Shown: piece by piece, positions 5,180 through 10,143 of the stretch | Position numbering within the stretch: the stretch's first letter is position 1 | How the letters are laid out: the number at the start of each line of letters is the position of its first letter | Assembly: GCA_934394615.1 (NCBI GenBank) | Contig: CAKRRJ010000075.1 | Location: 1-10,143 of the forward strand | Length of the DNA: 10,143 nt | Source: an uncultured Lachnospiraceae bacterium | GTDB taxonomy: Bacteria > Bacillota > Clostridia > Lachnospirales > Lachnospiraceae | Direction of reading: 5' to 3' | Position numbers and translations under genes: made by a program | Notes under the pieces: generated by a model | Seen by the model: only the letters and a program-made list of their open reading frames with translations | Database searches by the model: none | What the model was told of the DNA's origin: nothing

Positions 5180-5187
5180 ATAACAAC
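5180..5187 (+). repeat. Left copy of an 8-bp target-site duplication
   Basis: ATAACAAC directly abuts the left terminal inverted repeat of the element at 5188-5320. The same eight bases recur exactly at the other border. Confidence 0.75.
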
Positions 5188-5320
5188 GTTACTGTACACG
5201 GGTAGGCATTTTCTGAACTGAAAATGCCGTATGATACAGTGATGGCAGCAGATTTTGCCGATTTGGAATGCAAAGCACCGGCAAAATCCGTTGCTGTTTG
5301 CGCAACGCGTGAACAGTAAC
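5188..5320 (+). mobile_element. MITE-like hairpin element, copy 1 (133 bp, with target-site duplication)
   Basis: The element starts GTTACTGTACACG and ends CGTGAACAGTAAC, terminal inverted repeats with 12 of 13 matches. An identical 8-bp ATAACAAC flanks both ends. It encodes no protein. Three stems fill it: GGCATTTTC/GAAAATGCC (5205-5213 with 5220-5228), GATTTTGCCG/CGGCAAAATC (5251-5260 with 5279-5288), and a 14-bp stem 5290-5303 with 5307-5320 around an AAC loop, including three G-U pairs in the plus-strand RNA. A second copy, about 91% identical (11 substitutions and one 1-base gap in 134), lies inverted at 8901-9034. The pattern fits a non-autonomous element moved by a transposase encoded elsewhere; several DDE families, such as IS66, ISL3 and IS256, make 8-bp duplications. 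The source family is not identified. It separates the amidase gene from topB and forms part of any topB leader. Confidence 0.85.
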
Positions 5321-5328
5321 ATAACAAC
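5321..5328 (+). repeat. Right copy of the 8-bp target-site duplication
   Basis: ATAACAAC directly follows the right terminal inverted repeat and matches 5180-5187 at all eight positions. Confidence 0.75.
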
Positions 5329-8900: not shown

Positions 8901-9034
8901 GTTACTGTTCACACGTTGTGCAAACAGTAACGGGATTTTGCCGATGCTTCGCATTCCAAATCGGCAAAATCTGCTTCCGCCACTGCATCATACGGCATTT
9001 TCCGTTCAGAAAATGCCTACCCGTGTACAGTATC
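8901..9034 (-). mobile_element. MITE-like hairpin element, copy 2 (134 bp, inverted, no target-site duplication)
   Basis: Read on the minus strand this is the same element as 5188-5320. The stem GGCATTTTC/GAAAATGCC is unchanged, the second stem is extended to GATTTTGCCGAT/ATCGGCAAAATC, and the third stem is GTTACTGTTTGCAC with GTGTGAACAGTAAC. Its 5' terminus reads GATACTGT instead of GTTACTGT, and the 8 bases on each side do not match, so this is an older or rearranged insertion. Its first base is the G of the lipoprotein gene's TAG stop codon. Relative to its neighbours the orientation is the same as copy 1: it follows the stop of the upstream gene and precedes the downstream gene on the coding strand. 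Confidence 0.8.
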
Positions 9035-9891
9035 TATTTATTTTCCGGTGTGTAGACAGCAAGGATGTAGTCTCCGATGGCATGCGCAACCGGAAGAGAG
9101 AAATAGACCGATCCTTCAAATTCGTAGCTGAAACATTCCGGAAAATTTCCGCTGTACGGGAAGTCGGCGTTCTGGAACAGATTCAGATAGTAAGCGTGGT
9201 CATTTTCGGCGAGGAACGTCTTCGCAGCCTCGATCGTCTCAGCGTCTGCCTCCGGAAATGTACAGTCACCGGAAAGCACATAAGAAGCGAGGGTGGAAGG
9301 GTCAGCAATCTGAGACAGACCGATATCCGCACCGGTACCTACATTTACTGTATTGGTGTAGAATACGGCGGATGGATGCGCGCCGCCGTTTACCTGGAAG
9401 CTGCCCTCGTAGCGGATGGCGATGCGGCTCTTTGTGGCAGAGAGCACCTTACAGGTTACGTCCAGGGTATCGTTTGCTTCATCCAGTCCGTAGGCGCTCA
9501 GGATCGAGAGCGCATTGTCTTTGATGTGGTCATTGACGGATGCTTTTACGGATGCATCGGTGATGACCGGATACTGGATGGAAATGTTTCCGTTCCGGTA
9601 AGTATCCAGACGGACAGAGAGCGAAAGGGTTGAGGCAGATCCGCCGGCTGTAGTTCCCTGCGGCTGTCCGGCAGCGTTCTCAATGCCCGGTTCAATGGAA
9701 ATTTCAGAGTTGGCGGACTCTTCCGTTTGGGTGACAGCAGGAGCGGTCTGCACCTGGGATTCGGAAATAGCAGGCTCACTGCCTGCAAGATCGATCCGGT
9801 CATGCTTTTTCTTACAGCCGGACATTAAGCAGACGGTACTGAGCGTCAGGATGGCCAGGGTTATGGTATATTTCATCTTCTTTGGTATCAT
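9034..9891 (-). CDS. Predicted lipoprotein with DUF4163/DUF3298-type (PdaC/RsiV-like) domain
   Basis: The 285-residue protein has a lipoprotein signal peptide: basic MIPKKMK, a hydrophobic core (about 8-22) and the lipobox LMSGC with Cys26 as the expected lipidated residue. A Ser/Thr/Glu/Gln-rich linker runs to about residue 87. The rest resembles the DUF4163 plus DUF3298 pair (about 90-165 and 190-280), including the GGAHPS motif (169-174). The same pair occurs in PdaC and in the anti-sigma factor RsiV, where it can bind lysozyme or precede a catalytic domain; no polysaccharide deacetylase domain is present here. A role at the outer face of the membrane is likely, but the ligand is unknown. 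The ATG at 9912 was rejected: it lies at the expected transcription start, whereas AAGGAGG stands 8 nt before the ATG at 9891. Confidence 0.82.
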   Translation of the reverse strand: MIPKKMKYTITLAILTLSTVCLMSGCKKKHDRIDLAGSEPAISESQVQTAPAVTQTEESANSEISIEPGIENAAGQPQGTTAGGSASTLSLSVRLDTYRNGNISIQYPVITDASVKASVNDHIKDNALSILSAYGLDEANDTLDVTCKVLSATKSRIAIRYEGSFQVNGGAHPSAVFYTNTVNVGTGADIGLSQIADPSTLASYVLSGDCTFPEADAETIEAAKTFLAENDHAYYLNLFQNADFPYSGNFPECFSYEFEGSVYFSLPVAHAIGDYILAVYTPENK

Positions 9892-9918
9892 GGAAAGCAC
9901 CTCCTTTTTCATGTCCCC

Positions 9919-10067: not shown

Positions 10068-10143
10068 TGCCGGCAGCCGGACTCGAACCGGCACGAGGTC
10101 GCCCCCGTCAGATTTTGAGTCTGATGCGTCTGCCATTCCGCCA
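10068..10143 (-). tRNA. tRNA-Leu (anticodon CAA), 5' end cut by the window edge
   Basis: Read on the minus strand, the window enters at U8, so only the seven 5' acceptor bases are missing. The anticodon stem TCAGA/TCTGA encloses the loop CTCAAAA, with anticodon CAA at 10115-10117, which reads the TTG leucine codon. A long variable arm, typical of class II tRNAs, follows. The T arm is GCCGG-TTCGAGT-CCGGC, and the acceptor strand TGCCGGC ends with discriminator A at 10068. The next bases are TCC, so CCA is not encoded and must be added by the nucleotidyltransferase. Confidence 0.95.

Follow-up and report, generated by a model that had tools for sequence, protein, structure and literature searches.

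Our analysis describes a 133-bp element present in two copies within a stretch of 10,143 nucleotides from a Lachnospiraceae genome (the window), and very probably the best overall explanation is a mobile, non-autonomous MITE with fixed ends and 8-bp target-site duplications, whose fold is preserved through compensatory changes. The element is a MITE in kind, and its family is new as far as these searches reach. A high-copy, structure-conserving MITE family, which appears to cross species, is thereby added for the gut Lachnospiraceae.

Architecture of the two copies

The first-pass annotation had described a hairpin-rich 133-bp element with ends matching at 12 of 13 bases and an 8-bp duplication, and these positions were confirmed exactly. 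Copy 1 comprises the following features.

5180-5187, unstranded: left copy of the target-site duplication, ATAACAAC, identical to 5321-5328 (8/8)
5188-5320, plus strand: element copy 1, 133 bp, starting GTTACTGTACACG and ending CGTGAACAGTAAC
5188-5200, plus strand: left terminal inverted repeat GTTACTGTACACG, pairing with 5308-5320 at 12/13
5205-5228, plus strand: hairpin 1, GGCATTTTC-TGAACT-GAAAATGCC; 94.8% of cells paired, with compensatory changes
5251-5288, plus strand: hairpin 2, GATTTTGCC...GGCAAAATC; 95.5% of cells paired, with compensatory changes
5290-5320, plus strand: right-end palindrome, formed by an internal terminal-repeat copy in inverse orientation (5290-5302) and, opposite it, the right terminal repeat (5308-5320)
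5321-5328, unstranded: right copy of the target-site duplication, ATAACAAC

The termini of copy 1 are GTTAC, and the family ends are GTWACWGTWCACR. Its size of 133 bp, under the 500 bp limit for MITEs, is accompanied by terminal inverted repeats (12/13); it has room for at most 44 codons and thus encodes no transposase. The copy is flanked by genes for an N-acetylmuramoyl-L-alanine amidase and for a DNA topoisomerase; we take the latter to be topB, and its closest relative shares 85% protein identity with it.

The inverted second copy reported at 8901-9034 was recovered, with an identity to copy 1 of 91.0% as computed over 8901-9032.

8901-9034, minus strand: element copy 2, inverted, 91% identical, without target duplication
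8901-8931, minus strand: right-end palindrome of copy 2
8934-8971, minus strand: hairpin 2 of copy 2, with the loop ATGCGAAGCAT in element orientation
8994-9017, minus strand: hairpin 1 of copy 2
9022-9034, minus strand: left terminal repeat of copy 2, GATACTGTACACG

The arms of copy 2 match those of copy 1 at 93% over 100 nt and at 87% over 38 nt. Its left end reads GATACTG, and its flanks agree at 2 of 8 bases, that is, without duplication. The neighbours are a uracil phosphoribosyltransferase gene and an ORF without a Pfam match (9034-9912, minus strand), read by eye as a lipoprotein; base 9034, at the end of copy 2, provides the final G in the TAG stop codon of this ORF. A partial tRNA occupies the window end (10068-10143, minus strand). 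The hairpin-rich character was borne out in both copies and on both strands, with fold z-scores from -5.85 to -6.34 and none of 200 shuffles reaching an equal value.

Distribution, duplications and spread

The high copy number suggested by the first-pass annotation was seen in relatives, the element being abundant in a few genomes. Brotaphodocola catenula (G004) holds at least 36 matches (36 of 105 candidates scored), the best being 96% identical at full length; G244 holds at least 40 (40 of 148 scored) and G312 holds seven (all 23 scored). When the family was sampled evenly and up to two candidates were scored in each genome, matches came from 6 of 397 genomes, of which three were only marginal (28-34 bp), and within the B. 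catenula genus 2 of 24 genomes matched, one marginally. A covariance model search of the order, scoring eight candidates per genome, gave matches in 4 of 392 genomes and added G164 (four matches) and G658 (one match) as hosts.

Duplications of 7/8 or 8/8 are present in all five carrier genomes. End pairs with a duplication of at least 7/8 in the fetched loci numbered 57 in G244, 13 in B. catenula and five in G312, and a control with the left flank shifted gave zero duplicated end pairs in these three genomes. G164 has 12 such pairs, one broken by unread bases, and the sole G658 copy has a 7/8 duplication. Nearly all duplication-bearing copies are 115-143 bp or 27-31 bp long. At L204, two full elements stand in tandem at 1920-2209, with the 8-bp AAATACAG occurring three times in the order duplication, element, duplication, element, duplication. 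The sole duplicated copy of intermediate length (L221:2950-3030; 81 bp, 7/8) has model positions 1-46 joined to 96-133.

The insertion site in the window is empty elsewhere. The element is absent from all 80 topoisomerase loci of relatives, and in eight of these the topoisomerase gene adjoins an amidase gene across a short, element-free gap, giving syntenic empty sites. The earlier reading of a transposed non-coding element therefore stands: because other genomes show the same fixed ends and 8-bp duplications, and eight syntenic relatives lack the element at the window site, the two outcomes that the first-pass annotation had set against it, namely copies lacking these marks or an element held at one place in distant genomes, did not occur.

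Five of the six window genes compared share 67-80% DNA identity with B. catenula, the sixth having no match in that locus; for these five genes, B. catenula is no closer than the element-free relatives L001, L002 and L006. The best element copies of the window and of B. catenula are 96.2% identical. Since the element is so much more similar than the host genes, it has probably spread horizontally between species. Carriage as phage or plasmid cargo was considered and rejected, four patterns giving zero exact matches in viral_contigs, and searches of plasmids also giving none. In a phage collection, one record (L081, MT839400.1) matches the window and G312 elements, and none matches a G244 element. 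This record, an unverified 'Bacteriophage sp.', carries one near-complete and one partial element, a PHP-type frame (by eye) and unrelated-looking DNA, and looks like a chimeric contig.

Conservation of the fold

We aligned 37 hand-chosen full-length copies (two from the window, 13 from B. catenula, 15 from G244 and seven from G312). In this alignment, 92.8% of cells are paired, compared with 28.5-44.0% for slid structures, and both sides are changed in 92 cells, where shuffles, which ignore the relatedness of the copies, give 31.2 +/- 4.7. Columns 20/39, for example, carry C-G, A-U or U-A, and columns 75/98 exchange C-G for G-C. Of the five measures, two gave no excess over the shuffles, namely the pairs with a change on both sides (10 vs 9.3) and the pair types (27 vs 27.5). 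For the right-end palindrome, 91.6% of cells are paired and seven pairs are changed on both sides, against 4.1 +/- 0.9. The changes tell subfamilies apart, and therefore the structural constraint probably acts on source copies.

The distant relatives in G164 and G658 keep the same order of parts, namely the end, then AGG-hairpin 1-CCGTAAGA, followed by another paired region and the right palindrome. Some apical loops contain GCGAAGC, an unusually stable DNA mini-hairpin. The mobile hairpin element of the first-pass annotation is retained, to which the present work adds the fold shared across species, the palindromic right end and a 27-31-bp form; all of these were absent from that reading and come to light only through other genomes.

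A stand-alone right-end palindrome

The right-end palindrome is a part of the element that is also found alone in relatives. In 20 cases a stand-alone palindrome is bordered by its own duplication (7/8 or better), in three lineages that differ in sequence (13 in G244, three in B. catenula and four in G164). The fetched stretches were picked around end-repeat hits, so the following ratios do not represent genome-wide frequencies: in G244, 13 duplicated palindromes of 30 bp (seven perfect) against 44 copies of 132-134 bp; in B. catenula, three of 31 bp, nine of 132-136 bp and one of 81 bp; in G164, four of 27 bp and seven of 115-143 bp. The palindrome pattern, at no more than one mismatch, occurs 92 times in G244, with the right ends of full copies counted, and zero times in the other 244 relatives searched. 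At L157:15505-15593, the broken end of a subfamily A element is occupied by a stand-alone palindrome of 30 bp, which duplicates GTTCTGGC of that element.

Two origins of the short form both fit the data: it may be a mobile unit of exceptionally small size, or the product of recurrent precise deletion. We lean slightly towards deletion, in which the left end would slip or recombine with its direct repeat, the internal copy, so that approximately 100 bp are lost and the right palindrome is left within the original duplication. The left end and the internal copy are indeed direct repeats, sharing GTTACTG in subfamily B of G244 and GTTACTGT in G164. Perfect duplications are somewhat rarer in the short form (7/13 in G244, compared with 29/44 for full copies), and subfamily A, whose two copies match poorly, has no stand-alone palindrome in a partial sample searched with a pattern that would miss this type. 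Moreover, one 29-bp copy, L163:16043, resembles such a junction. However, the shared stretches in B. catenula are just 3 and 4 bp long, yet short forms exist there; the junctions seldom fall in the distal shared block; and duplicated deletions of other sizes are almost absent, with the 81-bp copy as the one case.

Independent transposition of the 27-31-bp form is a serious contender, although we place it somewhat below an even chance. Here, two facing 13-bp ends across 1-5 bp would suffice for the transposase, with the internal inverted copy of the end perhaps standing in for the left end, and the form would rank among the smallest mobile units. The 20 cases with their own duplications, in three lineages of different sequence, argue for this possibility, as do the bimodal lengths with a single intermediate (81 bp, in B. 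catenula). In G244, the short forms average 1.54 mismatches to the consensus, and the right ends taken from 35 full-length copies of subfamily B average 0.91, a difference that is not significant (permutation p 0.157). The base of the internal copy is found at position 8 in 12 of the 13 G244 short forms, and two of the three short forms in B. catenula keep the GTTG of the internal copy, where the usual left end has GTTA. On the other hand, a spacer of 1-5 bp leaves scant room for synapsis of the ends, and the short forms copy the variants of local full copies. L163:16043 has a sequence of the left-end type, as does L176, which lacks a duplication. Some stand-alone palindromes of G244 lack a recognisable duplication, 9 in a set of 21 scoring at most 6/8, L163:16043 included, the duplication of the latter becoming 8/8 if the element is taken one base shorter. 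Finally, no donor was found that misses only the right 30 bp and has a matching duplication, the flanks of the sole candidate, L152, being mismatched.

The fuller proposal, that a right-end palindrome nested in a larger structured MITE transposes independently as a 27-31-bp unit, is put forward tentatively. If it is true, a DDE transposase would move DNA, possibly folded into a hairpin, that scarcely exceeds its two binding sites in length, and the palindromic end would be a factory for mini-elements in at least three lineages. The duplicated stand-alone right end offers a testable case for the minimum size of a transposable unit.

Gene context and the RNA reading

Of the 89 placed copies, 57 have neighbours in tandem orientation, and 45 of these share the strand of the genes, whereas 12 are on the opposite strand (G244 26/10, B. 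catenula 13/2, G312 5/0, window 1/0). Adding G164 and varying the gene-size cut-off gives 39/13, 50/17 and 47/16; in G164 alone the counts are 2/4, 2/5 and 2/5, and the bias is absent there. Gene calling simply took the longest ORF, and the direction of replication was not separated from that of the genes, so the bias is suggestive of selection on the transcript and is not proof of it. Seven of the 89 placed copies overlap an ORF; in the recount with other cut-offs, 28 copies do so at the loosest ORF setting.

Although the compensatory changes and the co-orientation with tandem genes (45 to 12) would suit a conserved non-coding RNA or regulatory element that is not mobile, this is very improbable for the whole element and largely refuted as the sole explanation by the 8-bp duplications at unrelated sites, the element-free orthologous sites, the G164 orientation of 2 to 5, and Rfam, which gave no family at gathering score over the window element or in six loci with relatives. 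A conserved riboswitch or small RNA was rejected, as the Rfam matches were sub-threshold only (best score, 17.7 bits). A transcript function on top of mobility is possible. For the mobile element, the hairpins may serve transposition through contacts with the enzyme or with single-stranded DNA, or they may instead keep read-through transcripts harmless. The covarying hairpins, together with the gene-strand bias, provide a way to ask whether the structure of a MITE serves transposition or the host transcript.

Search for an autonomous parent

The element would be mobilised in trans by an enzyme of the DDE type. Duplications of 8 bp are made by the IS6, IS1595, ISL3 and ISAs1 families. The first-pass annotation had suggested looking for a full-length insertion sequence with matching termini and 8-bp duplications, and none was found in the fetched stretches or around IS66 and IS256 genes. 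The fetched stretches contain one end pair longer than 150 bp with a duplication of at least 7/8, a 389-bp pair in G164, which proved to be an element broken by unread bases and was discarded as a candidate parent. Between 500 and 4500 bp, the fetched loci yielded no well-duplicated end pair; inspection by eye of three weak ones (5/8, two of them the same place) revealed no frame resembling a transposase. L146 has only a left end, before a TrkA gene.

An IS66 origin was not supported: PF03050 is found in one of the five carrier genomes (G312), and only single end-like matches with 2-3 mismatches lie nearby. Nor was an IS256 origin, PF00872 scoring above cut-off in two of the five (G658 and G312), none with element ends; around IS256, 13 loci gave no end-like match with at most one mismatch and no other duplicated end pair. 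B. catenula and G244 gave no IS66 or IS256 match. All carriers are draft genomes, and breaks between contigs may have cost them insertion sequences.

Relation to known elements

MITEs of the ERIC, Correia and RUP type duplicate TA, and REPINs are not known to make a target duplication. The present element differs from both, having GTTAC termini in place of TA and clear 8-bp duplications. Unlike ERIC, Correia and RUP, its right end is a palindrome that is also found alone. The portions of PMC2229807 consulted describe the termini of those families as mostly 5'-TA-3' (Table 1), and they also record several shared traits of ERIC, Correia/NEMIS and RUP: a size of about 100-200 bp, terminal repeats, stable stem-loops and a mostly intergenic location. 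A parent is known for few of them (same portions of PMC2229807), and none was found here either. No description of our family appears in the literature searched, including the consulted parts of PMC6382973, PMC2267715, PMC2229807, PMC10969869 and PMC3116915.

The REPINs, which are linked to RAYT transposases, and the REP singlets likewise consist of short inverted hairpin units, with single palindromes beside a larger unit (PMC3116915, in part). In the same part of that source, REP singlets are read as dead remnants and are significantly more diverged, whereas our short form is not significantly more diverged in a small sample.

In the consulted portion of PMC10969869, QMITE1 and QMITE2 of Coxiella burnetii likewise have short direct repeats (7-9 bp for QMITE2) and a strong fold, and QMITE1 also has shortened copies, ranging from 39 to 400 bp. 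The QMITE lengths given there are broad, whereas the duplicated copies described here are near-bimodal (115-143 and 27-31 bp) and, unlike the QMITEs as they appear in that portion, have a short class that is always the right-end palindrome.
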